DNA of 64,000 bases, taken from NCBI RefSeq assembly GCF_024168485.1, contig NZ_JALJVY010000006.1, forward strand, positions 1 to 64,000, read 5' to 3'. Position 1 is the first letter of the stretch; the number at the start of each line of letters is the position of its first letter. The DNA comes from Sphingobium sp. OAS761. GTDB lineage: Bacteria > Pseudomonadota > Alphaproteobacteria > Sphingomonadales > Sphingomonadaceae. The notes beneath the pieces are model-generated. The model searched no databases, had not been told where the DNA came from, and saw only the letters and a list, made by a program, of their open reading frames with translations. Position numbers and translations under genes: made by a program. Of the stretch, positions 26,600 through 51,939 are shown one piece after another.

Positions 26600-27817
26600 A
26601 TGACGTTCGTGGAACGCCCCCTTTGGAATTTCGACCATCATGGGTCGCGCTACGCGCAAAACTGGGAAGATCTGGTCCGAGAATTACACGCAATGGACTT
26701 CCCGCTGGCCTGGTCGGAGGCCAATGGCGGCTACTGGATTCTGGGTGCATGGGCTGAAGCGAAGAAGGCGCTGGAGGATTGGGAGGCTTTTTCGGCGGAT
26801 AATGATGTCAAGCATGAACGTCGCGGCGGCAAGGGATCACGCATTCCGCAGCATTCCTATCCGTTGATGCTCAGCGAGTCCGATCCACCCTTTCACACGG
26901 CGCGTCGTCGGATCGAGATGCCGTTTTTCACGCCCAAGGCATTGCGCGAATATGGTCCGATGATCGATCGCTTCATGGATGAAGCGCTGAAGGGAATTCG
27001 AGCGAAGGAAGAGGCGGACATGCTGCGGGATGTGATCCTGCCGATCACTGCCCGCGCGACCTTTCACCTGGTCGGCTATCGCGAGAGTTGGAGCGAAGTA
27101 GCCTATTCGGTGCACCTGGTGTCACATACAAAGGAGACGGACCCCGGTTATCCCATCGAGATGATCCAGCGCATACAGGCCGGGTTCCGCACGATGGTAG
27201 CCGAGCGCCGCGCCGAGCCGAAAGACGATATCGCATCGGCGCTGGCGCAGGGCGAGGTGCTGGGCCAGCCGCTGTCGTTCGAAGAGGCCGAGAGCATGAT
27301 GACCGCACTCGTCTTCGGAGGGTTCGACACGACGACCGCGTCGGTCATCAACGCCCTGATCTGGCTGCAGGATCGTCCCGAAATCCGCCGGCAACTCCTC
27401 GACGATCCCAAGCTTCTCGACAATGCCATTGAGGAATGGCTGCGCGTCTGGCCGCCTGCGCAGGGGATTGGACGGACGGTGATGCGCGACATGGAGATTG
27501 GCGGCCGCCAACTCCGCGCGGGCGAACGCATCTTTATCTGGTTCGCAGGCGCCAACCGCGATCCGGCGAAATTTCCCGATCCTGAGACGGTTCAACTCGA
27601 CCGTCCCAAGGCGTCCGATCATCTCGCATTCAGTGGTGGTGGGCATCGCTGCCTGGGTGCGCCGCTCGCCAAGATCGAGCTGCGCACCATGATCCGCGCC
27701 GTGCTGACGCGCATGCCGGACTATCGGATCGATCTCGACAGGGTCACCCGTTTTCCGACCTACGGGGCGGTGGCGGGGTATCTGGAAGTTCCGATGCGGC
27801 CAGGTGCGATAAGCTAA
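26600..27817 (+). CDS. Cytochrome P450
   Basis: 405 residues. I-helix GGFDTTTAS (about 235-243), ExxR in the K-helix (EEWLRV), and heme motif FSGGGHRCLGAPLAKIEL. N-terminal LHAMDFPLAWSEANGGYW and MPFFTPKALR are shared with the P450 at 33234, so they are paralogues. Start at 26600 has GAGAG seven bases before. Soluble bacterial class I P450, needing ferredoxin; substrate unknown. Convergent with the P450 at 27864. Confidence 0.94.
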   Translation: MTFVERPLWNFDHHGSRYAQNWEDLVRELHAMDFPLAWSEANGGYWILGAWAEAKKALEDWEAFSADNDVKHERRGGKGSRIPQHSYPLMLSESDPPFHTARRRIEMPFFTPKALREYGPMIDRFMDEALKGIRAKEEADMLRDVILPITARATFHLVGYRESWSEVAYSVHLVSHTKETDPGYPIEMIQRIQAGFRTMVAERRAEPKDDIASALAQGEVLGQPLSFEEAESMMTALVFGGFDTTTASVINALIWLQDRPEIRRQLLDDPKLLDNAIEEWLRVWPPAQGIGRTVMRDMEIGGRQLRAGERIFIWFAGANRDPAKFPDPETVQLDRPKASDHLAFSGGGHRCLGAPLAKIELRTMIRAVLTRMPDYRIDLDRVTRFPTYGAVAGYLEVPMRPGAIS

Positions 27818-29097: not shown

Positions 29098-29952
29098 CTA
29101 CTCAGGCGATCCGCCGCTTGCGCAGAATGCCTCAAATTCTTCCTGGAAATCGGGGTGCCAGCGCGAGAGCGCCGGGCGATTGCGGATGACGTCGTCCTGC
29201 GCCCATTGCAGGCGGCGCTCATCGATCGCGCGGGACGTTTCATTGTCCTGGCACCAGATGTAAAAATCGCGCTGCGCCAGACCTGCCAACAGGGCTTCGG
29301 CAACCTGATCGCAGGTCCATGCGGCGGCGGGCTTTTCCGCGAAATGGCGGGACATCATGGCGGAGTAGGTGAAGCCGGGCACGAGGAGGTGGGCCGAGAC
29401 CCGGCATCCTTCGATCTGGCGCAAACTGTGGGCCAGTCCCTCCGTCAATGTCCTGACCGCGGCCTTGGTGACGTTGTAGGCCGTGTTGCCCGGCGGCGAG
29501 GTGAAGCCCTGTTTTGATCCGGTGTTCACGATGGCGGCGGGCGTGCCCTGGTCCACCATGGGCTGCACGAAGGCCTGCACGCCGTTGAGAACGCCGTTGA
29601 GATTGACGCCGAGGATCCCGTCCCAGCTGCCGGGGCCGGAGAACAGGTCGCCGCCGACGCCGATGGCCGCGTTGTTCATCAGCAGTCCGACTTCCCCGAA
29701 CCGCTCGAACACGGCATCGCGGAGGTCACAGACCTGAGCGACGTCCGCGACGTCGATCGTCCGATACATGACATCAGGCGCACCTGCCCTGGCGACTGCA
29801 TCGGCCGCGTCCGCCAGCCCTTCGCTGATATCGGCCAGGCACAAGCGCATACCCGCAGCGGCACAGCGCAAGGCCACGGCGAGACCGATGCCGTTCGCGC
29901 CGCCGGTGATGACCGCGGCCCGACCCGGTGCAATGGCCGGATGGTTGTTCAT
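29098..29952 (-). CDS. Short-chain dehydrogenase/reductase
   Basis: 284 residues, ATG at 29952 with GGAGGGG upstream (a GTG at 29961 is the alternative). Cofactor motif ITGGANGIGLAVALR (about 15-29), NNAAI, catalytic YNVTKAAVRTLT. C-terminal region with VSAHLLVPGFTYSAMM is long, similar in layout to the SDR at 39851, so they are probably related paralogues. First gene of an SDR-P450 pair. Confidence 0.9.
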   Translation of the reverse strand: MNNHPAIAPGRAAVITGGANGIGLAVALRCAAAGMRLCLADISEGLADAADAVARAGAPDVMYRTIDVADVAQVCDLRDAVFERFGEVGLLMNNAAIGVGGDLFSGPGSWDGILGVNLNGVLNGVQAFVQPMVDQGTPAAIVNTGSKQGFTSPPGNTAYNVTKAAVRTLTEGLAHSLRQIEGCRVSAHLLVPGFTYSAMMSRHFAEKPAAAWTCDQVAEALLAGLAQRDFYIWCQDNETSRAIDERRLQWAQDDVIRNRPALSRWHPDFQEEFEAFCASGGSPE

Positions 29953-29979
29953 CGTGGACACCCCTCCCGATCGGTACTT

Positions 29980-29997: not shown

Positions 29998-30106
29998 TTG
30001 AGGAGGTAGGATGTCAAGCGGCTTGCCCTGGCCTTTCGTTGAGCTTGGAGAAATCGCGGACAATGCCTAAGCTCAGCCTCTTTGCGTGCGGGAGCGAGGA
30101 AGTTTG

Positions 30107-31318
30107 GTGACGTCAATCGACAAGATTCGGAAACCGGATCATGGAGGCGCGAGGTCCTCCAGGACGTCGAAACTCGCAGAAACAGTCGCGCGAAATCTTG
30201 AGGAGCGGATCATCTCCGAAGGCTGGCCGGTGGGTCATCCCATCGGTCGCGAAGCCGATCTTGCCACATCGGCCGGAGTAGGGCGATGGGCCATGCGGGA
30301 GGCGCTGTGCCTTCTGGAGGAAGGTGGTCTTATCGAATCCCGGCGTGGAAATGGCGGCGGGATGTTCGTCGCCTCCCTGCCGTCCACCATGGTGATAACA
30401 CGTCTCAGCAACTATATTGACTTCATGGGTGCGCCCGCCGCCGAGTTGTCGATCCTGCTGGCCGCGTCCGACAAGGTCATGATCGACCGCGCGGCATCCC
30501 GCATGAAGGCAGCAGATCGCCGGGAGTTGAAGGAAATTCTCGCCAGCGTGGAATCGCCGGTAAGGCCAGAAACCATCAGGTCGCTCGCACCCATCCGTCC
30601 TTTGTTGTTGCGGGTGGCAGGCAATTCCGCCCTCAAGTTGATATCGGGTTCGGTGACCTTGGCCACGATGCAAGCGTGCTGGTATTCAACGCTGGCGGAT
30701 GAGGCGTATCGGGAAGCCTTCATTCCGGTCGCTATCGCCGAGCGGGATATCGCGACGGCACTGGTGGGGGCGGCGGTTGCGGATGCCCATGTCGCCTCGA
30801 CCCTTTTCGTGTCCGCATGCGAAAAGCTGTTCCGGGCCTCGGCGAACTCGCTCCGTTTGCCGGGACATACGCAGGCAGCGGTTCGCGCGTACGAACTTTT
30901 TCCGGCGGGCAGGCCGATGAAGAAAGCGGAGAGCGTCGCGCGCCACTTGCGGGAGATGATTCTGGATGCGGGGTGGCCGGTGGGCGCGCAACTGGGCACT
31001 CTTCCCGAACTGATGGAGCGTTTCGATGTCGGGCGCCCGGTATTGCGGGAAGCGCTGAGAGGTCTGGAGCGTATGGGCGCTATCAGGGTCGAGAGGGGAA
31101 TCGGGGGTGGGGTGAAAGTCGCGTCCCCCGATCCAGATGAAATCATCTCTGCCTGCCGTCGGCACCTGGAGCGCGAAAATCTCCAGCCGGATGAGGCCCA
31201 TGAGATGTTGGATGCCATTGCCGAAGCAGAAATGCGCAGAGGACGACCGAACGGCGGCGAAGCGGAACTGACGACATTGCTGCCACTTGTCCGGCAGATA
31301 TTGATGCTGGACAAATGA
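30107..31318 (+). CDS. Double-HTH FadR/GntR-like regulator
   Basis: 403 residues, GTG start at 30107 with GAGGA upstream. First winged helix at about 25-90 (EGWPVGHPIGREADLA, VGRWAMREALCLLEEGGLIE, RRGNGGGMFVAS), an FCD-like helical middle (about 100-270), then linker YELFPAGRPMKKAE and a second winged helix at about 280-345 (DAGWPVGAQLG, VGRPVLREALRGLERMGAIRV, IGGGVKVASPDPDE). Normal FadR proteins have only one such domain. Paralogues are at 45349 and 51940. Divergent from the SDR-P450 pair, its likely target. Confidence 0.85.
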   Translation: MTSIDKIRKPDHGGARSSRTSKLAETVARNLEERIISEGWPVGHPIGREADLATSAGVGRWAMREALCLLEEGGLIESRRGNGGGMFVASLPSTMVITRLSNYIDFMGAPAAELSILLAASDKVMIDRAASRMKAADRRELKEILASVESPVRPETIRSLAPIRPLLLRVAGNSALKLISGSVTLATMQACWYSTLADEAYREAFIPVAIAERDIATALVGAAVADAHVASTLFVSACEKLFRASANSLRLPGHTQAAVRAYELFPAGRPMKKAESVARHLREMILDAGWPVGAQLGTLPELMERFDVGRPVLREALRGLERMGAIRVERGIGGGVKVASPDPDEIISACRRHLERENLQPDEAHEMLDAIAEAEMRRGRPNGGEAELTTLLPLVRQILMLDK

Positions 31319-31410: not shown

Positions 31411-32070
31411 ATGTCCAGCCAAGCCGAGCAACTTTCCCCGGGGATCCCAGCCAGACCGGCGAACAGGAAGATAGCGGGGGTGCCTCGGACCCGTTCGCAG
31501 CAGAAGCGCGAGACGGCGCAAGCCTTGCAGGATGCGGGCATGGCGCGTTTCGTCAAGGATGGGTTCGAAGCAACGACCATAGAGGACATCGCGCGAGACG
31601 CCGGCGTCTCGCGGCGCACTTTTTTCCGCTACTTCCCGACAAAGGAAGAACTGATCCTCTCCCAGTTCGAGGAAATGGGTACGATCATTTTCGACGAGAT
31701 CCGGTGTCGGCCCAAGAGCGAGGGGCCGATGCTGGCCTTGCGCAACGGTTTCAGGACGCTGGACGTCCAGGATACGGCGCAACGCCGCCGGATGGAATTG
31801 CTCGGCTGGCTGATCGCGGAGACGCCCGCTCTACGAGGCCTGATGCTCCTGCGGCAAGAGCGGTGGGAGGCGGAGATTGCCGACAGACTGGCCGACAGGC
31901 TCGGCAAGCCGCACGGCGATCCGGTTGCGCGGCTGGTGGCTGCCGCCGGCTATGCCGCCTTCAGAGTGGCTTCGTTGAAGAACAACATGAGCGGCCGGGG
32001 AAATTTCGGAAAAACTCTGGACGAGACCTTCGACTTGCTCGGTGAAGTCGCGGGGCATTTGCAAGGCTGA
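31411..32070 (+). CDS. TetR-family transcriptional regulator
   Basis: 219 residues. HTH at about 32-80 (RSQQKRETAQALQDAG, FEATTIEDIARDAGVSRRTFFRYFPTKEELI), followed by a helical ligand domain with LDETFDLLGEV at the end. An N-terminal extension of about 28 residues precedes the HTH, so a later start is possible, but no better ribosome binding site is visible. An inverted repeat lies in the promoter. Possible repressor of neighbouring catabolic genes. Confidence 0.88.
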   Translation: MSSQAEQLSPGIPARPANRKIAGVPRTRSQQKRETAQALQDAGMARFVKDGFEATTIEDIARDAGVSRRTFFRYFPTKEELILSQFEEMGTIIFDEIRCRPKSEGPMLALRNGFRTLDVQDTAQRRRMELLGWLIAETPALRGLMLLRQERWEAEIADRLADRLGKPHGDPVARLVAAAGYAAFRVASLKNNMSGRGNFGKTLDETFDLLGEVAGHLQG

Positions 32071-32220: not shown

Positions 32221-33237
32221 CTACGCGCGGGCGTCTACAACGGCGAGCGCCGCAAGAATCGCCGTCACCTCCATCGCATGCTCGGCCGTCTTGGTCATCA
32301 GCTCGACCTGCGAGGGTTCGGGCGACACGAAGGTGGAGGGCCCCCAACTGCCGTCGGAACGCTGGCGGGCGATGAACCAGTCGGCCATCTGCACGAGTGT
32401 ATCGGAATAGTCGTGCGTCGGATCGGCGATCTGCATCAGCGCCACGCCCCAGCCGAACTTACACGCCTGCACCGATGCGAGATCGTCAAACTGCGCCTGT
32501 GTGCCGGCAAGGTTGATGCCGAGATAGGCGTGGCCGCCGGCCAACGCGTCCTTGTCGCCCGTGCGCATCGCATAGAGCCCGAGGAAGCCGGCAGCAATGC
32601 CGGGGTAGAAATAAGCCTGTCGCGCTTCCTGGAACTTAACTGCGGCGACCCAGCCGAGATCGGCCGGGGGCTCAGTCACAAGCCCTTGGGGCGAGCGCAG
32701 CGTATAGAGGATGTTAGGAAGCGCTGGCTGTTCGGCCAGGCAGGCGAGCGTCCAGTCGCGGATGCGCTTCGCCAGATCCATGCGTCCGCCCAATATTGCC
32801 GCCATGCCCACCTGCGCGGTCGAGAGCAGATCGGTGAGGTCGGCATAGGGGCCGCCGGGCACATCGACGGGCATGCCGCCATTCTGCTCCAGCGCGCCAA
32901 TCCGGTTGAACAGCCGCGCGGCGACGTCGTGCCGTTCCAGCAACAGCGCGCCCATGGTGAGGTGGCCGATCGGATAGGCGCTGAACCGCCCCTGGCCATA
33001 AGCGACGCCGGCGGAGAAATCGCCATTCTCCCCAAGGCCTTCACGATTGGCCCATTCCAGCACGGAGGCGCCCGCTGCGGTTTCGCCCAGCAGAGCGAAG
33101 GTCCAGGGAAAGCGCGACCAGCCATTGCCCTTGTCGGCGTCGGCCGGGCGGCCGTTGGAGCAGACCCTTTCGAGCAGCCAGTCGCGGGCGCGGTCTCGCG
33201 ACGCCCGCAAGCGCTGCGCAGCGGCAACGACGCTCAT
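32221..33237 (-). CDS. Unknown all-helical protein, prenyltransferase/terpene-cyclase-like toroid suspected
   Basis: 338 residues from the ATG at 33237, overlapping the P450 stop by four bases. No signal peptide. Mostly predicted helical, with repeated segments and a late RQRSDGSWGPST resembling QW-like motifs of prenyltransferase/terpene-cyclase toroids, but no DxDD or DDxxD. WANREGLGENGDFSAG and AYPIGHLTMGALLLERH are notable. I do not recognise the family. Translational coupling to a P450 and an SCP2-hydrolase suggests a role in processing a cyclic substrate. A longer frame to 33522 is antisense-like leader and is rejected. Confidence 0.7.
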   Translation of the reverse strand: MSVVAAAQRLRASRDRARDWLLERVCSNGRPADADKGNGWSRFPWTFALLGETAAGASVLEWANREGLGENGDFSAGVAYGQGRFSAYPIGHLTMGALLLERHDVAARLFNRIGALEQNGGMPVDVPGGPYADLTDLLSTAQVGMAAILGGRMDLAKRIRDWTLACLAEQPALPNILYTLRSPQGLVTEPPADLGWVAAVKFQEARQAYFYPGIAAGFLGLYAMRTGDKDALAGGHAYLGINLAGTQAQFDDLASVQACKFGWGVALMQIADPTHDYSDTLVQMADWFIARQRSDGSWGPSTFVSPEPSQVELMTKTAEHAMEVTAILAALAVVDARA

Positions 33238-34457
33238 GCCGCCACTCCCGCATTCAGTCGGACCGGCACGCTGGAATAACCCAGGATGGTTCCCGTTCGC
33301 GGGAAGCGGACGGCGCGATCCTCGTCGATGGTATAGTCGGGCATTTCGCGGATGAAGGTCCCCAGCATGGCGGTGATCTCCAGCTTGGCCAGCGGCGCGC
33401 CCAGGCAGCGGTGCGGGCCGGCGCTGAAGGACAGATGGTCGCCCGCATTGGCGCGCGTCAGATCGAGCGTGTCGGGATCGGAGAATTTCTTGGGGTCGCG
33501 GTTGGCTCCGCCCAGCCAGCAAAAGATGCGATCACCCGCGCGCACCTTGCGCCCGCCGATTTCCACATCATGCCGCGCATTGCGCCCGACACCGGGCGTC
33601 GGCGGGAAAAAGCGGAGAAATTCCTCGATGCCCAGCGACATGGCCTGCGGACTGGTGATCAGCGTTTCGCGGGCGCCGGGCCGGCTCGCCAGCCAGATCA
33701 GGGCGTTCACGACCGCGCTGGTCGTGGTGTCGAAGCCGGCGAAGACGAGGGCGTACATCATGCTTTCCGCTTCGGGGTCGCTGAGCGGTTGTCCGTTCAC
33801 ATGCCCATGGGCAAGAGCGGAAATGATGTCGCCCGTCGGGTTCGCGCGCCGGTCAGCAAGATAGCGGGAGAACATCACCCGCGTATTGGCTATTTCCGTA
33901 TGCGGATAGTCGGGATGATCGGGCGGCAGATAGATGGCGCGGTGCGAAGACATCGCCGCGTCCTGCCAATTGTCCGCCTCAAATCCGACAAGGTTGAGCG
34001 TGGTGCGCGCAGTTGTCGGGATGACGATGTCATTGACCAGATCGACCTCGTCGCGCCCCTCGCAGTTCTTCAGGGCCTCCCTGAAGAATTCCTCTGCCTT
34101 CGCCCCCCAGGTACGCAGCGACTTGGGCGTGAAGAAGGGCATTTCCAGTCGCCGCCGCGCGGTAGACAAGGGCGGGTCGCTCTCGCTCAGCATCAGTGGG
34201 AAGGTCTGCTGCGGGATGGAGACGCCGCGATAACCTTCGCGTTCCTTGTGCACATCATTGTCGGACGAAAAATTCTCATAATCCGTCGTGACGCGCTTCG
34301 CCTCTTCCCAGTCGGCGAGTACCCAATAGCCGTCATGGGCGTCGGTCCACGCCATGGGATAATCCATGGCGTGCAACCGGCGGGCAGTGTCAATCCAATT
34401 GTCCTTGAAGTCGATCGACTGATGATCGAAATCGAATGTCGGCGACCGGTCCGTCAT
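33234..34457 (-). CDS. Cytochrome P450
   Basis: 407 residues. I-helix FAGFDTTTSAVVNALIW, ExxR (EEFLRFF), heme motif FSAGPHRCLGAPLAKLEI. Its N-terminal half (RRLHAMDYPMAW, MLSESDPPLSTARRRLEMPFF) is closely similar to the P450 at 26600. Middle gene of the operon with the SCP2-hydrolase upstream (23-base gap) and the all-helical protein downstream (4-base overlap). Hydroxylase of unknown substrate. Confidence 0.94.
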   Translation of the reverse strand: MTDRSPTFDFDHQSIDFKDNWIDTARRLHAMDYPMAWTDAHDGYWVLADWEEAKRVTTDYENFSSDNDVHKEREGYRGVSIPQQTFPLMLSESDPPLSTARRRLEMPFFTPKSLRTWGAKAEEFFREALKNCEGRDEVDLVNDIVIPTTARTTLNLVGFEADNWQDAAMSSHRAIYLPPDHPDYPHTEIANTRVMFSRYLADRRANPTGDIISALAHGHVNGQPLSDPEAESMMYALVFAGFDTTTSAVVNALIWLASRPGARETLITSPQAMSLGIEEFLRFFPPTPGVGRNARHDVEIGGRKVRAGDRIFCWLGGANRDPKKFSDPDTLDLTRANAGDHLSFSAGPHRCLGAPLAKLEITAMLGTFIREMPDYTIDEDRAVRFPRTGTILGYSSVPVRLNAGVAA

Positions 34458-34480
34458 GTTCCTGCCTCACTTGCCCTGTG

Positions 34481-35752
34481 TTACTTGCTTTGAACGCGTG
34501 CCAGCACCCGGTCGAGCACCGGGATCAGCATGTCGGCGAAGGCCACCGGATCGTCGGAGGGAGCGAAGTGGCCCAGGCCGTGGGCGACGATCACTTCGGA
34601 CCCGGGGACGTTGCGCTCGATCGCCGGGCCGCCGTGCACCTCGTCATAGGCAGCGGAGTCATATTGACCCTCGATCACCACCAGCGGCTTGGCATGCGCG
34701 TCGATCATGTGGCCGCATTGCTTCAGATCATGCCCATGCATGAAATAGTCGTTGTCGCCGGCATAGACGCCCGGGAAATTGCTGCGGTAGATCCAATAAA
34801 CTTCCTGCGCCAGCGCCTCGGGCGCGACGGGGGTCGTGCCCCCCAGGATGATCGACATCGGATAATCTTCCGAGACGGACGGCGTGCGAAAGATGTCATT
34901 GTTGATCGCGTCGGGCGGGATCGGATTGTCGTACCAGCCGTTGAGCGAGATGAAAGCGCCGAAGCGGTCCTTGTGATAGGCGGCAAGATCGAGCGCGAGT
35001 TGCCCGCCGACCGAGCAGCCGGCGAAGAAGGGTTGGTCGAGCTTGAGATAATCGGCGAGGGCGACGACCCAGTTCATCAGCTCCTCGCGCGTCGTCTTGT
35101 AGGGCTGCTCCCACCAGCGCACGCCGATCGGCGGCAGCGACTTGCCATGATAGGGCAGGTCATAGGCGATCATGGTGAAGCGCTTCTGCATCTCGGGATG
35201 GGCGAGCAGGTAACGATATTGGCGGCTATCTGCGCCCGCAGTGTGCTGAAGCAGCAGCGGCGTCGGGCCGGTGCCAGCGGTCTCATAATAGACGCGAGCT
35301 TCCACGCCGTTCGCCTGGATATAGCCATAACGGCCAACTGCGGTGTCGGTGTCGCGGAAGGGAGCGGGTTCCGCGCGGCGCTCGTTGAGGCCGCAGACCG
35401 CCTTGCGGAAGACGAGGTAAAGACGCTGCCATGCGGCCTGATAAGCGGCAACGTGCGCCGCAAAGTTGCCCTCAATCTTGAGCCCATGCGAAAAGCTCAT
35501 CGTCACCGTCTCATAACCTGGCTCGGCGAGCGGCTTGGACAGCGCCTGCGCCCAGAAGGCATCAGGTGCGGAGATGACAACGTCTGCATCGCCTGACGCG
35601 GGGCGCACATCCTTGATCTCACCGCCCACGATCTCCAGATCGAAGGCTTCGGCATCGGGGCCGATCCGCACGGTCGCGTCGAGACCGCGCAGCTTGTAGG
35701 TCAGTTCCTTGTCACCGGTGGCTTCGGCCCGGAATGTGTCGATTGTCGGCAC
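34481..35752 (-). CDS. SCP2-like domain fused to alpha/beta hydrolase
   Basis: 423 residues. Residues about 1-115 look like an SCP2 (sterol-carrier/lipid-binding) domain (DATVRIGPDAEAFDLEIVGG, ADVVISAPDAFWAQALS, FSHGLKIEGNFAAH). Residues about 130-420 are an alpha/beta hydrolase with nucleophile elbow FAGCSVGG (Ser247), LLQHTAGADSRQYRYL oxyanion region and C-terminal His in VAHGLGHFAPSDDP. A lipid-binding domain on a hydrolase fits a hydrophobic ester or lactone substrate. First gene of the P450 operon. Confidence 0.85.
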   Translation of the reverse strand: MPTIDTFRAEATGDKELTYKLRGLDATVRIGPDAEAFDLEIVGGEIKDVRPASGDADVVISAPDAFWAQALSKPLAEPGYETVTMSFSHGLKIEGNFAAHVAAYQAAWQRLYLVFRKAVCGLNERRAEPAPFRDTDTAVGRYGYIQANGVEARVYYETAGTGPTPLLLQHTAGADSRQYRYLLAHPEMQKRFTMIAYDLPYHGKSLPPIGVRWWEQPYKTTREELMNWVVALADYLKLDQPFFAGCSVGGQLALDLAAYHKDRFGAFISLNGWYDNPIPPDAINNDIFRTPSVSEDYPMSIILGGTTPVAPEALAQEVYWIYRSNFPGVYAGDNDYFMHGHDLKQCGHMIDAHAKPLVVIEGQYDSAAYDEVHGGPAIERNVPGSEVIVAHGLGHFAPSDDPVAFADMLIPVLDRVLARVQSK

Positions 35753-35941: not shown

Positions 35942-37381
35942 TCACAATCCACCCATCATCACATATTTGAGTTCCAGATATTCCTGGATGCCGTGCCGTG
36001 AACCCTCCCGACCCTGGCCGGAAGCCTTGATGCCGCCGAACGGAGCGACCTCTGTGGAAATGGCGGCCTCATTAAGTCCAATCATGCCATATTCCAGAGC
36101 CCCCGAGACGCGCATCGCCCGCCCGATGTCGCGGGTGTAGACATAGGCGGCGAGGCCAAACTCGGTGTCGTTCGCCATGCGGATCGCGTCGGCTTCGTCC
36201 GAAAAGCGGATGATGCCGGCGACCGGACCGAACGTCTCTTCCCGCGCGATGATGGCGTCGGCGGGGACATCGGCGATCAGCGTGGGCGTGAAGAAAAGAT
36301 CATGGTCGAGCGCGCCGCCGGTGACGAGCTTACCGCCGCGGGCGACCGCATCGGCCACATGCTGCTCCACCTTCGTCACGGCGCGCTGGTTGATCAGCGG
36401 GCCGATGGTGGATTGGGGATGGGTCCCGGGGCCAACGACCAGCCGGTCCATGCGTGCCGCCAGCGCCTCGACGAACGCGTCATGTACCTTGTCATGGACC
36501 AGGAAGCGGTTGACGCAGACGCAGGTCTGGCCGGCATTGCGGAACTTGCCGAGAATAGCGCCATCCGCCGCAGCTTCGATGTCAGCATCCTCGAACACCA
36601 GGAAGGGGGCGTTGCCGCCCAGTTCCAGCGATAGACGCTTGAGCGTGGGCGCCGCCTGCGCATAGAGCATCTGCCCGACCGCGGTCGAACCGGTGAAGGA
36701 TAGTTTGCGCACCACGGGGCTTTTCATGAAGGCGCCGCCGATCGCCTGTGCATCGCCTGTCACGACGTTGAACAGGCCGGCCGGGATGCCCGCTTCTTCG
36801 GCCAGCCCAGCCAGCGCGAGCGCGGTCAGCGGGGTTTCGGGAGCCGGCTTCAGGATGACTGCGCAGCCCGCCGCAAGGGCCGGCGCAACTTTGCGCGTGA
36901 CCATGGCGGCGGGGAAATTCCACGGAGTAATCGCGGCAACGACGCCGACCGGCTCTTTCCAGACCAGCACGCGCTGATTGGAGCGGGGGGCGGGGATGAT
37001 CTCCCCGTCGATGCGGCGCGCCTCTTCCGCGAACCAGCGCACGAAGCTGGCGGCATAGGCGATCTCGCCCGCTGCCTCCGCCAGTGGTTTGCCCTGCTCG
37101 GCTGTCAATATCGCGGCGAGCGCGTCCTTGTGGCATAGGACCAGTGCATGCCAGGCATGCAGCAGGTCCGCCCGCTCGATCGCCGGGCGCGCGCGCCACG
37201 CGATCTGCGCTCGCTCCGCCGCTGCGATGGCGCGATCGGCCTCCTCGGCGCCCAGCGCCGGCACCTGTGCAATGATTGCGCCGGTCGCGGGGTCGTGAAC
37301 ATCGGTTGTGGCGGTACCGCTGATCCATTCGCCGCCGATCAGGGCGCGGTCGCGATAGGGGGGCAGGGTTTGCAATGTCAT
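35942..37381 (-). CDS. NAD(P)-dependent aldehyde dehydrogenase
   Basis: 479 residues from the ATG at 37381, preceded by CGAGGTCGAG. Full ALDH: PWNFPAAMVTRKVAPALAAG (about 140), SFTGSTAVGQ, ELGGNAPFLVFEDAD, and catalytic Cys in NAGQTCVCVNRFLV. Most like the succinate-semialdehyde dehydrogenase branch. Frame could extend to 37432, but that crosses into the promoter. Oxidises an aldehyde from the P450/SDR steps to a carboxylate. Neighbour of the 2Fe-2S ferredoxin, same direction. Confidence 0.92.
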   Translation of the reverse strand: MTLQTLPPYRDRALIGGEWISGTATTDVHDPATGAIIAQVPALGAEEADRAIAAAERAQIAWRARPAIERADLLHAWHALVLCHKDALAAILTAEQGKPLAEAAGEIAYAASFVRWFAEEARRIDGEIIPAPRSNQRVLVWKEPVGVVAAITPWNFPAAMVTRKVAPALAAGCAVILKPAPETPLTALALAGLAEEAGIPAGLFNVVTGDAQAIGGAFMKSPVVRKLSFTGSTAVGQMLYAQAAPTLKRLSLELGGNAPFLVFEDADIEAAADGAILGKFRNAGQTCVCVNRFLVHDKVHDAFVEALAARMDRLVVGPGTHPQSTIGPLINQRAVTKVEQHVADAVARGGKLVTGGALDHDLFFTPTLIADVPADAIIAREETFGPVAGIIRFSDEADAIRMANDTEFGLAAYVYTRDIGRAMRVSGALEYGMIGLNEAAISTEVAPFGGIKASGQGREGSRHGIQEYLELKYVMMGGL

Positions 37382-37548
37382 GATGCTCGACCTCGGTGGA
37401 ATAGATGCCTGGGAGAATGACGTTGCCGCCATCCTCCAACCGATCTCGCTATCTTGCAGTGGCGGATGGACATTTTTAGGCGCAGGCCGATGCGGACGCC
37501 CTCACGGCCATAGCCGCTCTGCGATCGTCGCGATCGGTAATGCCAGGA

Positions 37549-37869
37549 TCAATATTGCGACTCGGGCCAGCGAACGGTCATGCCATCAAGTTCCGGCGTT
37601 ACGATGATCTGGCAGGTCAGGCGGCTGGTCGGCTCGGGAGCGATCGTCCCGTCCAGCAGCATCTCCTCATTCTCGTCCGGCTTGGGCAGCAGGTCGTAGA
37701 ATTTTTGGTCCAGATAGCCGTGACAGGTCGAGCAGGAGAGATTGCCGCCGCATTCGGCCTGAAGCCCCGGTACGCCATTTTCGATCGCGACGCGCATCAC
37801 GGACTCGCCATCCTTCGCATCAACGACATGCTCGGTGCCGTCATATTCCTTAAAACAGATTTTCGTCAT
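37549..37869 (-). CDS. 2Fe-2S ferredoxin, adrenodoxin type
   Basis: 106 residues, with the cysteine pattern C-X5-C-X2-C...C (Cys40, Cys46, Cys49, Cys86; AECGGNLSCSTC and RLTCQI). This is the putidaredoxin/adrenodoxin-like class that donates electrons to class I P450s. Four P450 genes lie in the window and no dedicated ferredoxin reductase of the putidaredoxin type is visible, so the reductase is either the Fpr at 4863 or elsewhere in the genome. A motif similar to that at 41164 lies upstream at 37984. Confidence 0.93.
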   Translation of the reverse strand: MTKICFKEYDGTEHVVDAKDGESVMRVAIENGVPGLQAECGGNLSCSTCHGYLDQKFYDLLPKPDENEEMLLDGTIAPEPTSRLTCQIIVTPELDGMTVRWPESQY

Positions 37870-38094: not shown

Positions 38095-38847
38095 TCACCG
38101 GAGGACCGTGCCCTGGGAGACTCCCTGCCATTGGTCGGGATCATGGCCGAACAGCATGCGCGTTCCCCGCTCGCGCATCGAGCGGAGACGCCGCAGCACG
38201 TCGAGGCTCATCTCCCGGTCGAAATTGCCGGGAGATATGACGAGCTCGTCCAGGTTCCGGGCGAGATAGCAGCAGTCTGACGTCAGCACGACATCACCGT
38301 CCGCCAAACGCACCCGCGCCGACTGATGACCGGGCGTATGGCCGTAGGTGGGGAAAAGGATCAGCGATCCGTCGCCCCACAGGTCATACTCGCCATCGAC
38401 CGCCAGGAAAGATTGCCCCGTCTCGAAGTCGTCGTCAGCGTAGAGCATGCCGTCGATATGCGCCCGTGCGAAATCCAGCTCCTTCCGCTGGATGACGATG
38501 GTCGCGTTGGGAAAGGCGCCGTTGCCGCCGCAATGGTCGGCGTGGAGATGCGAGTTGATGACCCAGCGGATGTCGGCCGGATCGATGCCGGCCGCGCGCA
38601 GACGGGCGGCCAATTCGTCGCCCTCCCGGAAATCGAAGCCGACCTCCTCCGGCCCGAGCTGCGCGTCAATCTCCCTCCGGAAGCGGTGATGAAGGCCCGT
38701 GTCGAAGATCGCCATCCCCTTGTCGGGATGACGGATCAGATAGGCTGGAACGGGCGAGGTCAGCAAACTTTGATCCTCGCCACCCAGGAAAAAGGTCAGC
38801 GGCGCCTGAAAGGACCCGCAAGTGAAGCGAAGCAGCTCAATTCCCAT
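38095..38847 (-). CDS. MBL-fold metallo-hydrolase, lactonase-like
   Basis: 250 residues with metal motif HLHADH (His100, His102, Asp104, His105), plus FPTYGHTPGHQS and TSDCCY supplying further ligands. This pattern resembles N-acyl-homoserine lactonases and other lactone hydrolases. A good ribosome binding site (GTAGGAG) precedes ATG 38847. It is 12 bases after the aldo/keto reductase in the operon, where it might open a lactone formed in the pathway; quorum-signal hydrolysis is the alternative. Confidence 0.88.
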   Translation of the reverse strand: MGIELLRFTCGSFQAPLTFFLGGEDQSLLTSPVPAYLIRHPDKGMAIFDTGLHHRFRREIDAQLGPEEVGFDFREGDELAARLRAAGIDPADIRWVINSHLHADHCGGNGAFPNATIVIQRKELDFARAHIDGMLYADDDFETGQSFLAVDGEYDLWGDGSLILFPTYGHTPGHQSARVRLADGDVVLTSDCCYLARNLDELVISPGNFDREMSLDVLRRLRSMRERGTRMLFGHDPDQWQGVSQGTVLR

Positions 38848-38859
38848 GGTCCGCCGCTC

Positions 38860-39846
38860 CTACTGCCCGAAGGTGAAGACCGGCCGCGTCGCATAGGCGG
38901 CGTCCAGCAGGTCGCGCTCGGCATCGGTCAGCCTGATGGCGACGGCAGCGAGCGATTCCTCGAGTTGCGCCATCTTGGTCACGCCGATGATGGGGATCAC
39001 GCCGCTCTGCCGGGTCGCGAACCAGGCGAGCGCGATCTGCATCGGCGATACGCCATGCGTCTGCGCGATCTCGGCCAGCAGCGCCTGCAATGCGAAATCT
39101 TCCTCACGAAAGTAAATCTGCTCTGCCGTCTTGTCGGCCTGCGCACGCGCCGTTTCACCGCCGCCCTCGCGCTTGCGGTTGCCGGCAAGGAAGCCGCGTG
39201 CCAGCGCCGACCAGGCGAGCACGCCCAGCCCCTGATCCTGGCAGAGCGGGATCATCTCCCGCTCTTCCTCGCGATAGACGAGATTATATTGCACCTGCAT
39301 GGTCGAATAGCGCGTCCAGCCGTTAAGCGCCTGGATCTGCAAGGCCTTGGCAAGCTGCCATGCCTTGTAGTTGGACGCGCCGATGTGCAGGACTTTGCCC
39401 GACCGCACCAGATCCTCGAACGCGCGCAGCGTTTCGTCCAGGGGCGTCGTGCCATCCCAGGCATGCTGTTGGTAGAGGTCGATATAGTCCGTGCCCAGCC
39501 GTTTCAGGCTGCCCTCTACCGCCTGCATGATATGCTTGCGTGACGCGCCCCATTCATTGCGGCCGGGGCCTGTCGGCGCGAAGAATTTGGTGGCGAGTAC
39601 CAGATCCTCGCGCCGGCCGAACTCTTTGATGGCCTTGCCTACGACGATTTCGCTCTGCCCCTCGGCATAGCCGTCGGACGTGTCGATGAAGTTGACGCCC
39701 CCCTCGAACGCGCGCTGGAAGAAGGGGAGGCTCTGTTCCTCGTCCAGCGTCCAACCAGAATGGAACTGCCCCTTGCCGAAGCTCATGCAGCCAAGGCAGA
39801 TGCGCGAAACGGTAAGACCGGTGGTGCCGAGTTTGGTATAATCCAT
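38860..39846 (-). CDS. Aldo/keto reductase
   Basis: 328 residues from the ATG at 39846. NFIDTSDGYAEGQSEIVVGKAI carries the catalytic Asp and Tyr, YIDLYQQHAWD the catalytic His, and GVLAWSALARGFLAG and GVIPIIGVTKMAQLEESL the typical cofactor-binding end. NADPH-dependent carbonyl/alcohol oxidoreductase. Longer frame to 39945 overlaps the upstream SDR. Four bases after the SDR stop, so translationally close. Confidence 0.9.
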   Translation of the reverse strand: MDYTKLGTTGLTVSRICLGCMSFGKGQFHSGWTLDEEQSLPFFQRAFEGGVNFIDTSDGYAEGQSEIVVGKAIKEFGRREDLVLATKFFAPTGPGRNEWGASRKHIMQAVEGSLKRLGTDYIDLYQQHAWDGTTPLDETLRAFEDLVRSGKVLHIGASNYKAWQLAKALQIQALNGWTRYSTMQVQYNLVYREEEREMIPLCQDQGLGVLAWSALARGFLAGNRKREGGGETARAQADKTAEQIYFREEDFALQALLAEIAQTHGVSPMQIALAWFATRQSGVIPIIGVTKMAQLEESLAAVAIRLTDAERDLLDAAYATRPVFTFGQ

Positions 39847-39850
39847 GGGA

Positions 39851-40717
39851 TCAATTTCCGTCTGCTGAAGCGATGCCATAGTCGGCAAGCCGCGTGTCGA
39901 GCCGGTCCAGCGCCTCGCCGACTTCGCCATGCCGGCGTTCGGCAAAGGTCCGGATCACCGGATCGGTGATGATCATGAACTCATCCTGCGCAACACCGTC
40001 AAGGCAGATGCGCGCGGTGAGCGCCGGGTCTTGTCCGGCGGCCTTGAGGTGCGCGTCCATTGCAGCGCCTTCTTCTTCGGGCATCTTGACCGGCCCGCCG
40101 TAGCGATCGTGTCGCAGCGCACGCGCATCCCACAAACGAGTCGCCGTCAGGCCGGGGCAGAAGATGGCGACCGTGACCTTCGTCTCCTGCAAATCACGGC
40201 GCAGCGCATCAGCGATGCCGAGGATCGCATGCTTGGTCGATGTATAAACGGATGCAGGGCCCAGCGCAGGCAGGCCAACCGAATTTTCCGATCCGGTAAA
40301 AACGATGCGGGCGGCGCCCTTCTCCGCCGATCGCGCCTCCAGAGCCGGATAAAAGGCGCGCACGGTGGAGACGGCGCCGATCACGTTGACATCGTAGAGC
40401 CACTGAACCTCCTCGGGCGCAATGTCGATCACCGTACCCCCCAGGGCGATGCCGGCATTGACGAATAGCAGGTCGACGCCACCGAAATCCCCGACCACAG
40501 CATCGGCCAGTGTGGCGAGCGACGCCGGATCCGTTACGTCGCAGGCATAACCGCCTGCCCGCTCTCCCAGCGCAGCGGCGACACTCTTCGCCCGCTCGCC
40601 ATTGATGTCCGCCAGCGCCACGCGGGCGCCCCGACCGATCAATGCTTCACCCAGCGCCAGCCCGATGCCGTTGGCGCCGCCGGTGACGACCGCCACGGTC
40701 TCGCTGTTGATTTCCAT
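39851..40717 (-). CDS. Short-chain dehydrogenase/reductase
   Basis: 288 residues. Cofactor motif VTGGANGIGLALGEALIG (about 11-28), NAGIALGG, and catalytic YTSTKHAILGIADA. Extended C-terminal region similar to the SDR at 29098. ATG with GGAGAG before it. In the minus-strand operon EthD-SDR-AKR-MBL. Oxidises or reduces a ring or side-chain oxygen. Confidence 0.92.
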   Translation of the reverse strand: MEINSETVAVVTGGANGIGLALGEALIGRGARVALADINGERAKSVAAALGERAGGYACDVTDPASLATLADAVVGDFGGVDLLFVNAGIALGGTVIDIAPEEVQWLYDVNVIGAVSTVRAFYPALEARSAEKGAARIVFTGSENSVGLPALGPASVYTSTKHAILGIADALRRDLQETKVTVAIFCPGLTATRLWDARALRHDRYGGPVKMPEEEGAAMDAHLKAAGQDPALTARICLDGVAQDEFMIITDPVIRTFAERRHGEVGEALDRLDTRLADYGIASADGN

Positions 40718-40770: not shown

Positions 40771-41115
40771 TTACAACGAGGTGATGTCCGAGATGTGCTC
40801 CTTGACCAGCATGGCAGTAACGGTCGCGCGATCCATGAAGCTCTCTTCATCTGCTTGCAGCAGCTTGCCCTGTTCCGACTGGGCCACCGCGATCGATGCC
40901 TGCCAGCCGGCCTCATCATCGAACCACAACTCGGTGATCGCATCGAAGGCCGGTGCTTCCCCGGCAAGCGTGGACTCGGGATAATTGCGAACATAGGCCC
41001 GCAGGCTGGGGAAAAGCGATTGGGCGAGCGGCGCGTGAACATTCTCATAATGATCGCGAAAAGCCTGAACGTCCATGCCCTGCTTACGCCGAACCAACAT
41101 GACGAGCTTGATCAC
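40771..41115 (-). CDS. EthD-domain protein
   Basis: 114 residues from the GTG at 41115, which has GGAGGGG seven bases before; an ATG-started frame to 41223 passes through the promoter and is rejected. Reads IKLVMLVRRKQGMDVQAFRDHYENVHAPLAQSL, typical of EthD/ferredoxin-like alpha-beta barrel dimers. EthD proteins accompany P450 or dioxygenase systems and some are decarboxylases or cyclases; function here is unknown. First gene of the EthD-SDR-AKR-MBL operon. Confidence 0.82.
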   Translation of the reverse strand: MIKLVMLVRRKQGMDVQAFRDHYENVHAPLAQSLFPSLRAYVRNYPESTLAGEAPAFDAITELWFDDEAGWQASIAVAQSEQGKLLQADEESFMDRATVTAMLVKEHISDITSL

Positions 41116-41163
41116 CGCACCCCTCCATCTGCCTATAAATACGCCAGCGCTCTTTTGGCGCCA

Positions 41164-41196
41164 AATATGATACTCTTTCTGCATGTGTATCATATT
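41164..41196. promoter_or_regulatory. 10-base inverted repeat AATATGATAC-N13-GTATCATATT
   Basis: Perfect arms (41164-41173 and 41187-41196). It lies about 50 bases before the EthD gene, between it and the TauD stop. Arms extend into an AATATNATACT half-site also found near 53300 and a similar direct motif at 37984. Strong operator candidate for a dimeric regulator. Confidence 0.5.
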
Positions 41197-41264
41197 CATC
41201 GTCGGCGCAAGAAAAATCCCCACCCTCCCGGACGGGGATCAATAGCCGTCGATTTGGCAGTTTT

Positions 41265-42353
41265 TCAGCGATCCAGCAACGAAACCATCACCTCGCGCGG
41301 CCCCGAAAAGGGATTGCGGCCATGTGCGCAGAGCAGGTTGTCGAGGATTGCGACATCGCCATCCTGCCAAGGCCAGGCGAGTTCGACATCGTCATAGAGT
41401 TTGAAAACCGCTTCGATCTCCTCCTCGGTGAATTTTTCGCCCGTATCGAGATAATGGCCGGAGGGATATTTCTGCGCGGCGCGCACGGCGGCGACGATGC
41501 CGGCGAAGGCGGGGTTACGATCGAAATTGGTGTTGGTGTGGAGATTGGTCCGATAGATGCGCTCGCCGGTTATCGGATGAACGGTGAAAACATCTGTTTC
41601 CTCGCGGAGGGTCAGACTGCCGTCCGCGTGCCAGATCGGTTCCATGCCCAGCTTCGCGCAATGCGCCTCCACCTCTTCCCGGCTTTCGGTGAAGAAGGCG
41701 TCGTCCCAACCGATCTTGTCGGGATGGTCGACCGATGCGGCATTCTTGGTGCTGCCGGCAGGGGCATAGTTGCGCACGATGTGCACTTTGCGCCCTTCCA
41801 GCCGTTGCATCAGCCAGTCGGGGAAGCGGCGCATGAACAGCCGCATCGATCCAATGATCGTCTCGCCGCCGACTGGCGCGGTCGTCTTGCTGAACAGCGC
41901 GATGCGCGGCGGATAGCGCTTCATATAGGCCATCTCACTGTGCAAATTGATCTTGAACTTTTCGTCCAAGCGTGTCGATTCCAGCACCTGCCCCGTCACC
42001 GTCTTGCGCGGCGACATGCCGGCAACATAGCCGGGCTCATAACGCGGAAAGAGCGCCATAAGACGGTTGAAATCATCTGCCGAGCCGACGGGAAAGCCGC
42101 GCAGCATAACGCCGCCATGCTCGATCATCAGCGCGTCGAGCGTGGCCCGATGATCGCGTACCCAGTCAAGAAAGACGTCGAGCGCATTCAGCGCCTCGCC
42201 CTGCCGCTCGATGAAGAGCGGCGGCACGTCGGAACCGCCGGTCCAGCAGCGCACATCCCCGCCTAATTCAGGCACCTCTACGGCCATGCGGGTGGTCAGA
42301 TAATCGGTATCGCGCATCGCCGCCGGCGCGGGCTGCTCTGCTATCGTAGCCAT
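41265..42353 (-). CDS. TauD/TfdA-family Fe(II)/2-oxoglutarate dioxygenase
   Basis: 362 residues from the ATG at 42353. Metal ligands are likely His138 and Glu140 (NLHSEMAY) and His344 (LCAHGRNP), with Arg353 close by for 2-oxoglutarate. HxE instead of HxD occurs in the clavaminate-synthase-like branch. Hydroxylates or halogen-free oxidises an aliphatic substrate, releasing CO2 and succinate. The frame up to 42593 overlaps the cupin gene, so the internal ATG is chosen. Operon with bicupin and class II aldolase. Confidence 0.9.
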   Translation of the reverse strand: MATIAEQPAPAAMRDTDYLTTRMAVEVPELGGDVRCWTGGSDVPPLFIERQGEALNALDVFLDWVRDHRATLDALMIEHGGVMLRGFPVGSADDFNRLMALFPRYEPGYVAGMSPRKTVTGQVLESTRLDEKFKINLHSEMAYMKRYPPRIALFSKTTAPVGGETIIGSMRLFMRRFPDWLMQRLEGRKVHIVRNYAPAGSTKNAASVDHPDKIGWDDAFFTESREEVEAHCAKLGMEPIWHADGSLTLREETDVFTVHPITGERIYRTNLHTNTNFDRNPAFAGIVAAVRAAQKYPSGHYLDTGEKFTEEEIEAVFKLYDDVELAWPWQDGDVAILDNLLCAHGRNPFSGPREVMVSLLDR

Positions 42354-42384
42354 TTCATTCTCTCCCAATGCCTCGAATATCGCT

Positions 42385-43164
42385 TCAGACGTCCTGATAG
42401 TCCGGCCGGGCAAGCTCGGTATAGAAGGCCAACTCATCGACCGGATGTTCATCTCCCGCCCGTGCATAGGAGGGGCGCCCGGCGCGGAAATTGATAAAGC
42501 GCAGCCCGTTCTGGCCGGCGTGAAAACTATAGACTGCCTCCCGCTCGACCGCGATCGCGGTTCCCCGACCATAGCGACGGCGGCCGAGCACAATCTCCCC
42601 TGCCGTCACCATGATGACCTCATTTTCGGAATGATAGTGAGGATGCACCGGATAGCCGGGCGCGTGTAAACTGTTTTCATGCAGCCAAAGCTCGCAGGTC
42701 GGGCAGCGCGAATCTGCGAACAGGGCCGCGCCGACGCTCTCATTGCCCCTCATCCGCTCGACGCGCGGCTCCTGACCCGCTCCTAATATGTGGACGTGGC
42801 CGCCGGCTCGCTCCGGCATTGGTTCGCTGTCGGGATTGACATTGAAAACGATAATTTCCGCGCCTTCTTTCTCCGCCTTTATCTCCGCCGAAGCGCGATG
42901 TTCGATCAGCAGCACGCTGCCCGCACCCAATTTCCGGGCACCCGCTTGCACCGATCCGGACCAGATATAGGCGAGGTGGCCGCGCGCGCTGTTCTCCCAC
43001 CGGAACATCGCGTCGCCCGGCATCATGTGCATCCGCAGCTGAATGGGGGCGCTATCCGGAAAGGCCGTTCGGGTGAGGACGCCGCGGCCGGGCCGTTCGT
43101 CGCTCAGCACGACCGCCGGTTCGGCCGGAATTTCGGGAAGCTGCCTTACCGCTATTTTTGCCAT
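42385..43164 (-). CDS. Bicupin protein
   Basis: 259 residues from the ATG at 43164. Two cupin-like halves; the second has the classic HPHYHSENEVIMVTAGEIVLG and AVYSFHAGQNGLRFINF, which carries the metal-binding histidines. The first half lacks a clear metal set. This could be a dioxygenase or isomerase on a ring-cleavage product, or a non-catalytic regulator. Twenty-five bases after the aldolase and 31 bases before TauD, so part of that operon. Confidence 0.85.
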   Translation of the reverse strand: MAKIAVRQLPEIPAEPAVVLSDERPGRGVLTRTAFPDSAPIQLRMHMMPGDAMFRWENSARGHLAYIWSGSVQAGARKLGAGSVLLIEHRASAEIKAEKEGAEIIVFNVNPDSEPMPERAGGHVHILGAGQEPRVERMRGNESVGAALFADSRCPTCELWLHENSLHAPGYPVHPHYHSENEVIMVTAGEIVLGRRRYGRGTAIAVEREAVYSFHAGQNGLRFINFRAGRPSYARAGDEHPVDELAFYTELARPDYQDV

Positions 43165-43189
43165 CAACGCCTCCTGTCACACCACCGTT

Positions 43190-43987
43190 TCATCGCCGGT
43201 AGCTGGGATCGATCCGGTCAAGCTTGCGTAGCAGCCCGGGCCAGGCGAGTTGGCCGAGCGGCCCGTCGAACGTAGCCCGCGTGTTCCCCATCAGTCCGAC
43301 GATCCCCTGATTGACGCTGCGCACTTTTCCTCCTGCCTGCGCCCGGATCTGCATCGAGCAGGCGCGTTCCAGAAAATACATGCGCATGAAGGCGTCGGCG
43401 CACGTTCGCCCGACCGTCAGCGTGCCGTGATTGCGCAGGATCGCGAAATGCTTCCCGCCGATCGCGGCGGCCATCTCCTTGCCTTCGTCGGCATGCTGCC
43501 CTGGACCGCCATATTCATAATAGGCAAGGTCATTCACCACGATCATCGCCTGCTGGGTGATCGGCAACAAGCCGTCGTCCTGCGCGGATACGCCGGTGCC
43601 GTCATCGGTATGCAGGTGCATGATGCAATGCGCGTCGGGCAAAGCCATGTGGATGGCGCTATGGATGGCGAAACCGGCCGGATTGACCGGCGCGGGATTG
43701 TCATCGACCTTGTTGCCCTGCACGTCGACCTTCACCAGGCTGGAAGCGGTGATTTCCTCGAACATCCAGCCATAGGGGTTGATGAGGAAATGATCATCCG
43801 CGCCCGGCACCCGCGCGGAAAAATGAGTGAAGATGAGATCGTCCCAGCCGTGCATCGCAGCCAGCCGGTACAGCGCTGCCAGTTCCTGCCGCAACGCCCA
43901 TTCCCCGGGCGATACCTGCCCCTCCATCGAGTCGGTGCGGTATGCGCCCGCGACCACCCGCTCAGGGAGCATCTCGACCTTCGCCAT
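43190..43987 (-). CDS. Class II aldolase/adducin family protein
   Basis: 265 residues from the ATG at 43987. The class II aldolase fold is seen in LYRLAAMHGWDDLIFTHFSARVPG, HLHTDDGTGVSAQ (metal-binding histidines), and LRNHGTLTVG. Family members are zinc-dependent sugar-phosphate aldolases or decarboxylases of hydroxy acids. In a catabolic cluster a retro-aldol step on a pathway intermediate is likely. First gene of the aldolase-cupin-TauD operon, divergent from LysR at 44090. Confidence 0.9.
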   Translation of the reverse strand: MAKVEMLPERVVAGAYRTDSMEGQVSPGEWALRQELAALYRLAAMHGWDDLIFTHFSARVPGADDHFLINPYGWMFEEITASSLVKVDVQGNKVDDNPAPVNPAGFAIHSAIHMALPDAHCIMHLHTDDGTGVSAQDDGLLPITQQAMIVVNDLAYYEYGGPGQHADEGKEMAAAIGGKHFAILRNHGTLTVGRTCADAFMRMYFLERACSMQIRAQAGGKVRSVNQGIVGLMGNTRATFDGPLGQLAWPGLLRKLDRIDPSYRR

Positions 43988-44045
43988 ATCGCCTCTCCTC
44001 GCGTGCAATTCTGTATCGCTGACGGAAGATGCCTTGAAGCAGAGC

Positions 44046-44081
44046 ATTAATCGAATTAATATTTCTGAAAATGGAATTCAG
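44046..44081. promoter_or_regulatory. LysR-type operator candidates in divergent promoter
   Basis: ATTAAT-CGA-ATTAAT (44046-44060) and CTGAA-N7-TTCAG (44065-44081) lie between the aldolase start at 43987 and LysR start at 44090. Dyads of this kind are typical activation sites of LysR proteins; not tested. Confidence 0.45.
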
Positions 44082-47446: not shown

Positions 47447-47467
47447 CTCCTGCTCCTCCTCCTGTGC

Positions 47468-49084: not shown

Positions 49085-49126
49085 GACGCGCTCCGATTTC
49101 GGGATTTGCAGAAGAGGTTTGGCCGC

Positions 49127-50563: not shown

Positions 50564-50725
50564 ATTCACCTTCCCGTTCTTCGAACTGAGGCAATCGAGA
50601 AGCACAAAACTTGATGGGTCGGCGGACCATAAGAGGTGGGAAGGCCGTTGCTCGCCATGCTGAACCTCTTCTGCAGAGCAGAGCCGCCGACGCTGGTGCG
50701 CTATAGTCTATCCTCGTGAGGTATC

Positions 50726-51849: not shown

Positions 51850-51939
51850 TCGTGGCGTTGCGCCGCGGGTAAGGCGACGCTAGATCGCGATTCCGGCCGG
51901 CTGACGCCGGGGCAAGGGACTGAATTTTTGCGCGACGCA

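Follow-up and report, generated by a model that had tools for sequence, protein, structure and literature searches.

We have found that a 338-residue protein of Sphingobium sp. OAS761, hereafter X338, is by sequence comparison and structure prediction an alpha/alpha toroid homologous to AprG, the transaldolase of apramycin biosynthesis in Streptoalloteichus tenebrarius (PDB 9lfi, 9lfq, 9lfy, 9c95, 9c99, 9c9a and 9c9b). X338 is encoded in a trio of minus-strand genes, together with a cytochrome P450 and an alpha/beta hydrolase, in the 64,000-nt stretch NZ_JALJVY010000006.1, positions 1-64,000 ("the window"). It can be assigned to the AprG-type toroid aldolases as a variant that lies in a catabolic setting, with a predicted aldolase activity. 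The reading that we prefer, and consider slightly better than an even bet, is that X338 is a catabolic Schiff-base retro-aldolase of the AprG family that passes an aldehyde to a neighboring aldehyde dehydrogenase (ALDH). We base this on homology to AprG, the predicted fold, the conservation of K260 and E319 and the gene neighborhood; catalysis by K260, the retro-aldol direction and the identity of any substrate or product are its presumptive parts.

Homology of X338 to AprG

An earlier sequence-only reading of the window had left the 338-residue protein unassigned, and X338 indeed reached the cut-off of no Pfam or NCBIfam family; four other X338 homologs gave no NCBIfam match at E<=0.001. That verdict did not hold against PDB sequences, among which phmmer found AprG with X338 as the query (E 2.4e-11). 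A profile built from five X338 homologs matched AprG at E 5.6e-26 over profile positions 12-339 of 345. The AlphaFold2 model of X338 (predicted local distance difference test score, pLDDT, 84.6; predicted template modeling score, pTM, 0.88) was mostly helical, and its best matches were alpha/alpha toroids, in agreement with the toroid-like repeats noted earlier from sequence. In a Foldseek search with this model, the first 14 rows were all AprG chains (E 2.2e-13 to 3.7e-12, template modeling scores 0.82-0.85), and the next row was the terpene cyclase MstE (E 3.3e-6). A second aligner placed the predicted model on AprG with Z 39.3 and a root-mean-square deviation of 2.2 over 322 residues, followed by sugar 2-epimerases (Z 25.9) and drimenyl diphosphate synthase (Z 25.6). 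The sequence-only reading had said that a fold match to a well-known unrelated family would count against it; such a match was found in part, AprG having reportedly been described in 2023 by Fan et al. and its structures, whose PDB titles name it a transaldolase, having been released in 2025.

X338 and AprG are alike in fold, in homology over their full length, in four invariant residues (see below) and in a QW motif. They differ in setting: a passage of one article describes AprG as the aldolase that makes the octose core of apramycin's precursor, and hence as a builder of an aminoglycoside octose (PMC11033246), whereas X338 lies among catabolic genes. Of the 57 genes called in the window, 49 were scanned with Pfam, and they showed no aminoglycoside biosynthetic cluster around X338; its neighbors are instead oxidoreductases, P450s, lactonases, hydrolases and beta-oxidation genes. 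In our literature search, no paper among the matches listed was recognized as treating the mechanism of AprG. A tree joined AprG to the lineage of the homologs G923, G968 and G915 (support 99/98; G and L numbers are our handles for genomes and loci), but this placement was not relied on because AprG was flagged as a long branch and only midpoint rooting was used.

Conserved residues and the putative Schiff-base lysine

Eleven homologs (those of the window, L002, L003, L004, L005, G914, G529, Rhodococcus L007, G923, G968 and G915) were aligned with AprG. Some genomes carry two labels: G393 is L003, G933 is L005, and G944 is probably L002. K260, E319, T140 and T317 were invariant in all 11 homologs and in AprG, and K260 and E319 were the only invariant ionizable residues. 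The HMMER and MAFFT alignments both placed K260 on the same AprG lysine. This lysine is printed as X in the sequence u167612 (nine chains of 9lfq and 9lfy, which are titled as complexes with N-acetylglucosamine, GlcNAc, and N-acetylgalactosamine, GalNAc), and as an ordinary K in u167601 (nine chains, from apo 9lfi and from 9lfq) and in u158890 (9c95, which is apo; 9c99; 9c9a; and 9c9b, which contains a product epimer). Judging from the letter and not from coordinates, the printed X probably stands for a lysine-sugar adduct, that is, a Schiff-base lysine, in some chains only. K260 would then be the counterpart of the Schiff-base lysine of AprG.

The motif "DGSWG" noted late in the protein by the sequence-only reading is present and belongs to a QxxxGxW motif found in all 12 sequences, AprG included; residues 292-298 of X338 (QRSDGSW) constitute a QW motif, which is typical of class II terpene cyclases. 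Acidic catalytic motifs had been reported as lacking, and X338 has neither DxDD nor DDxxD. DxDD was found in none of the 11 homologs and not in AprG, and DDxxD in only one aligned sequence, the G529 homolog.

Gene neighborhoods of X338

Neighborhoods could be assessed at 10 of the 11 loci, the window included; L002 was set aside as a 3.6 kb contig. Genes at the compared loci were called with a simple script based on third-position GC content (GC3), so that start positions are approximate.

The closest parallel to the window was found in G529, where the set ALDH, X338, P450, hydrolase, aldo/keto reductase (AKR) and lactonase nearly matches that of the window (identities: ALDH 51-63% in two pieces, X338 44-45%, P450 39%, hydrolase 55%, AKR 61% and lactonase 56%). 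The trio has the same order and the same ATGA overlap in both, and the P450 beside X338 in G529 is 41% identical to the window P450 at 26600-27817 and 39% to that at 33234-34457. The earlier proposal of a compact three-gene unit is supported, and within the genus the unit was seen in a single genome besides that of the window. Its conservation elsewhere, which the sequence-only reading had made a test of itself, was mixed: the trio was present in one of the nine other assessable loci (G529) and absent from the rest, and X338 is mostly found without the trio's P450 and hydrolase. The trio is a true but rare unit.

An ALDH is the more general partner of X338. In 5 of the 10 assessable loci (G529, G914, G923, G968 and G915, with two ALDH types) it adjoins X338 on the same strand, lying directly downstream in G914, and it is the third gene from X338 in the window, where its relatives are the very genes that adjoin X338 in G529 and G914. 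As a background, none of 332 genes sampled across 400 kb of the genome that holds the window had an adjacent ALDH. In G923 and G915, X338 forms a compact set with a GMC alcohol oxidoreductase and an ALDH. The GMC gene of G968 is reduced to a C-terminal remnant, over which 108 residues match (L025, 9373-9765), while L024 and L026 hold the full gene.

An AttM-like lactonase lies near X338 in 4 of the 10 assessable loci; in L003 and L004 its homolog immediately precedes the X338 gene, and in G529 it lies four genes away. The L003 and L004 stretches also hold a GMC oxidoreductase, a P450, a ferredoxin, a ferredoxin reductase, two CaiB-like genes and an acyl-CoA-dehydrogenase-like gene, several of these names resting solely on similarity to relatives that are annotated or were scanned with Pfam (for the CaiB-like and acyl-CoA-dehydrogenase-like genes, annotated genes of L007). 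In Rhodococcus L007, a short-chain dehydrogenase (SDR) gene and then an alpha/beta hydrolase gene follow X338, and genes for a CoA ester lyase, CaiB and MaoC are also present. Vanillate-demethylase-like Rieske oxygenases are found near X338 in L022, and MFS and TonB genes in L024 and L026. Since the neighbors differ between loci, the substrate cannot be deduced from them.

The window holds, on the minus strand at 46562-50605, a second set of genes for a lactonase-fold protein, a GMC oxidoreductase and an ALDH, classes that accompany X338 homologs elsewhere.

Proposed function and alternatives

Under the preferred reading, P450, SDR and AKR steps would turn an oxygenated substrate into a beta-hydroxy carbonyl compound. 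K260 would form a Schiff base with the aldehyde or ketone substrate, E319 would aid proton transfer, and X338 would break the bond that joins the alpha and beta carbons of the carbonyl compound in a retro-aldol reaction. The released aldehyde would be oxidized by the neighboring succinate-semialdehyde-dehydrogenase-like enzyme, and the AttM-like lactonase and the alpha/beta hydrolase may open lactone or ester intermediates.

Several points weigh against this proposal. X338 and AprG are only about 23% identical, AprG has a three-residue gap just before K260, and residues 253-256 of the X338 model, in the same place, have pLDDT <50. D136 is an Asp in 10 of the 11 homologs and in AprG but a Leu in the Rhodococcus homolog. 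The printed X marks a non-standard residue in a deposited chain, which is not proof of a Schiff base, and an ordinary K is printed in other chains of the GlcNAc entry 9lfq and in 9c9b. No ALDH lies next to X338 in 4 of the 10 loci (L003, L004, L005 and L007), and the X338 homologs of G923, G968 and G915 are 79-87% identical and represent one shared locus or lineage, so that the ALDH associations reduce to about three independent ones. The 332-gene background is also small, is drawn mostly from contig starts and lacks any ALDH match.

After AprG, the model fits best to sugar 2-epimerases of the AGE family (Z 25.9), and lysine Schiff bases also serve dehydratases and isomerases. X338 might accordingly use its lysine as a Schiff base or general base in an isomerase, epimerase or dehydratase step that cuts no C-C bond, and the neighboring SDR and AKR genes would fit a keto intermediate; we consider this rather unlikely. 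The AGE-family enzymes (8h1l, 3wkf and 1fp3) share the alpha/alpha toroid at Z of about 24-26, but they are 8-14% identical to X338, and the gap to AprG (Z 39.3) is large. AGE epimerases work with catalytic histidines, whereas the X338 family has no near-invariant histidine: no alignment column had His in at least 9 of the 11 homologs, and AGE epimerase was rejected as an identity on this ground. The recurrent adjoining ALDH also fits a released aldehyde better than an isomerization. If, on the other hand, X338 makes a C-C bond by an aldol or transaldol reaction, as its characterized relative AprG does by its PDB titles, it would serve to modify or salvage small molecules. This seems improbable given its catabolic-looking window neighbors (P450s, ALDH, lactonase, hydrolase, acyl-CoA dehydrogenases, thiolases and hydratase), the catabolic-looking CaiB-like and acyl-CoA-dehydrogenase-like genes of L003 and L004, and the CoA ester lyase, CaiB and MaoC genes of L007.

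The sequence-only reading had offered a possible cyclase or binding protein. If X338 were a class II terpene cyclase, or resembled one and acted on a terpenoid, this would account for the QW motif, for a match to the SQHop_cyclase_C profile below threshold (14.3 bits against a gathering cut-off of 26.1) and for the toroid-fold matches to MstE (6sbc-6sbf), drimenyl diphosphate synthase (7xq4) and squalene-hopene cyclase (8pak). These matches are much weaker, with AprG closer by seven orders of magnitude in Foldseek E-value and by about 14 Z units (Z 39.3 against at most 25.6); the X338 family lacks DxDD throughout, and the QW motif is present in AprG too. We therefore rejected terpene cyclase and prenyltransferase: X338 is not a terpene cyclase, and a cyclase-like role is left with next to no likelihood. 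The GH76 mannanases, also among the fold matches, were rejected at 16.0 versus 25.9 bits in one distant homolog. If X338 were instead a binding protein or chaperone for the P450, with no catalysis of its own, the translational coupling of the two genes by an ATGA overlap in the window and in G529 would be explained. Yet in 8 of the 10 assessable loci no P450 gene is directly coupled to that of X338, and K260 and E319 are equally invariant there; the binding-protein alternative is weakened because this lysine and glutamate are invariant, and we give it little chance.

The wider setting agrees with a degradative role. Among the scanned genes of the window are those for acyl-CoA dehydrogenases, thiolases, an MFE-2/MaoC-type hydratase, an AMP-binding ligase, four P450s and a TonB receptor. 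The window looks catabolic, and a hydrophobic plant-derived compound is therefore plausible as the substrate; a cyclic terpenoid is possible. The window ALDH scored 651.9 bits against the cut-off of 646.35 of the NCBIfam succinate-semialdehyde dehydrogenase (SSADH) subfamily, and the lactonase 136.6 bits against the AttM equivalog cut-off of 390. The blc/att gamma-butyrolactone pathway comprises the AttM/BlcC lactonase, SSADH and an alcohol dehydrogenase. The window resembles it in that genes for an AttM-like lactonase and for an ALDH of the SSADH class lie in a single run of co-directional genes, and differs in that its lactonase falls far below the AttM cut-off and in the added P450, hydrolase and X338. 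A literature search for the gene set of the window found no paper. Abstracts place Rhodococcus GD02 among degraders of lignin-derived compounds, which is no proof of a link to X338; the passages seen of the GD02 papers do not mention the X338 locus, and the vanillate-demethylase-like genes of L022 do not prove a lignin link for X338 either.

X338 gives the fold of AprG relatives outside aminoglycoside biosynthesis. It is conceivable, although we would put the chance somewhat short of even, that the X338 family as a whole consists of catabolic toroid retro-aldolases in degradation clusters of sphingomonads, Xanthobacter and Rhodococcus, which split plant-derived compounds oxidized by P450 or GMC enzymes and hand the aldehyde to a co-encoded ALDH. 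If so, most of the family would be catabolic, with AprG as its biosynthetic member, and catabolic clusters would gain a specific step, the cleavage of a C-C bond to release an aldehyde. Class I (lysine/Schiff-base) aldolases and transaldolases are generally TIM barrels; the toroid would be a second, independent home of this chemistry. The invariant Lys/Glu pair and the recurring ALDH partner make it possible to test directly what the lysine does and which substrates the family accepts.

Distribution of X338

The distribution of X338 is rare and patchy. It was found in 8 of 94 genomes of the genus, three of these with distant homologs (62-73 bits), and in 3 of 396 genomes of the order sample, the window's own genome included. 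Only G393 itself had it among 99 genomes of its genus, and the phylum (398) and class (385) samples gave only the window's own genome. A single-sequence search of the family sample yielded 2 of 249 genomes, namely the window's own and a weak fragment in G060, which was dropped as a homolog (86 residues, E 2.9e-4, one internal stop). Named homologs at four or more loci are from Sphingobium (two), Novosphingobium rosa and Xanthobacter autotrophicus; the scan behind these loci used short peptide patterns, and the count is a lower bound. One of 72,556 plasmid records, a Rhodococcus rhodochrous plasmid (L007), carried a homolog, which is annotated there only as "hypothetical protein". A scan of viral contigs gave no relative of X338.

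The alpha/beta hydrolase and its N-terminal half

The hydrolase of the trio had been described as a fusion of SCP2 and alpha/beta hydrolase domains. The hydrolase part stands, whereas the SCP2 part scored 16.1 bits, below its gathering cut-off of 21.3. The 55% identical G529 ortholog showed no SCP2 match at E<=1, and one of three more distant homologs gave 12.0 bits. The SCP2 likeness of the N-terminal half may be treated as a lead; a single-sequence model of the protein was poor (pLDDT 38.9). At E<=1e-30 the hydrolase occurs in 2 of 94 genomes of the genus, those of the window and G529, both times in the trio with X338.

Two Rhizobium plasmids (L031 and L032) encode full-length homologs of the SCP2-like hydrolase at 28-29% identity, beside an AHL-lactonase-family protein, a GntR regulator, a Zn-alcohol dehydrogenase, an LLM flavin-dependent oxidoreductase and a flavin reductase. 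From these neighborhoods, the combination of hydrolase, lactonase and GntR regulator recurs outside the sphingomonads; it was not found around an archaeal homolog of the hydrolase.

Layout of the trio and other features of the window

Coordinates and translations bear out the three minus-strand genes as described before, with a 23-base gap between the P450 and hydrolase genes (34458-34480) and a 4-base overlap in the ATGA common to the P450 stop and the X338 start. The P450 call was likewise sound, with 93.5 bits against the Pfam p450 cut-off of 22.8 and the cysteine heme-ligand motif FSAGPHRCLG in the translation. The principal features are listed in Table 1.

Table 1. Genes and sites of the X338 region in the window
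Feature	Coordinates	Strand	Remarks
Further P450	27864..29087	-	Gene set common to G529 (51%)
SDR	29098..29961	-	Shared set, 57% to G529
Regulator with two GntR-type DNA-binding stretches	30086..31318	+	36% to G529 homolog
TetR-family regulator	31411..32070	+	Divergent from the X338 operon
X338, AprG-like alpha/alpha-toroid protein, 338 aa	32221..33237	-	Proposed Schiff-base (retro-)aldolase
X338 sites			K260, proposed Schiff-base lysine; E319, proposed acid/base; QW motif, residues 292-298
Cytochrome P450, 407 aa	33234..34457	-	Pfam p450 E 1.7e-26
Alpha/beta hydrolase with marginal N-terminal SCP2-like domain, 423 aa	34481..35752	-	Abhydrolase_1 E 9.4e-12
ALDH	35942..37432	-	Above NCBIfam SSADH subfamily cut-off
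2Fe-2S ferredoxin	37549..37869	-	Candidate P450 electron donor
Metallo-beta-lactamase-fold protein related to AttM/AiiA lactonases	38095..38847	-	Below equivalog cut-off
AKR	38860..39945	-	61% identical homolog in G529 cluster

The TetR regulator had no homolog among the genes called in L012/L013 (G529). The P450s at 26600-27817 and 33234-34457, two of the four in the window, are paralogs with 53% identity. Three regulators of about 400 residues (30086-31318, 45349-46554 and 51928-53136) each combine two GntR-type DNA-binding stretches in a single chain. A 402-residue protein (11623-12831), encoded downstream of an SDR gene, matched no Pfam family at E<=1e-4. Upstream of the AKR and lactonase genes on the minus strand, the stretch 40771-44047 encodes an EthD-domain protein, a TauD/TfdA-type dioxygenase and a class II aldolase/adducin-type protein.

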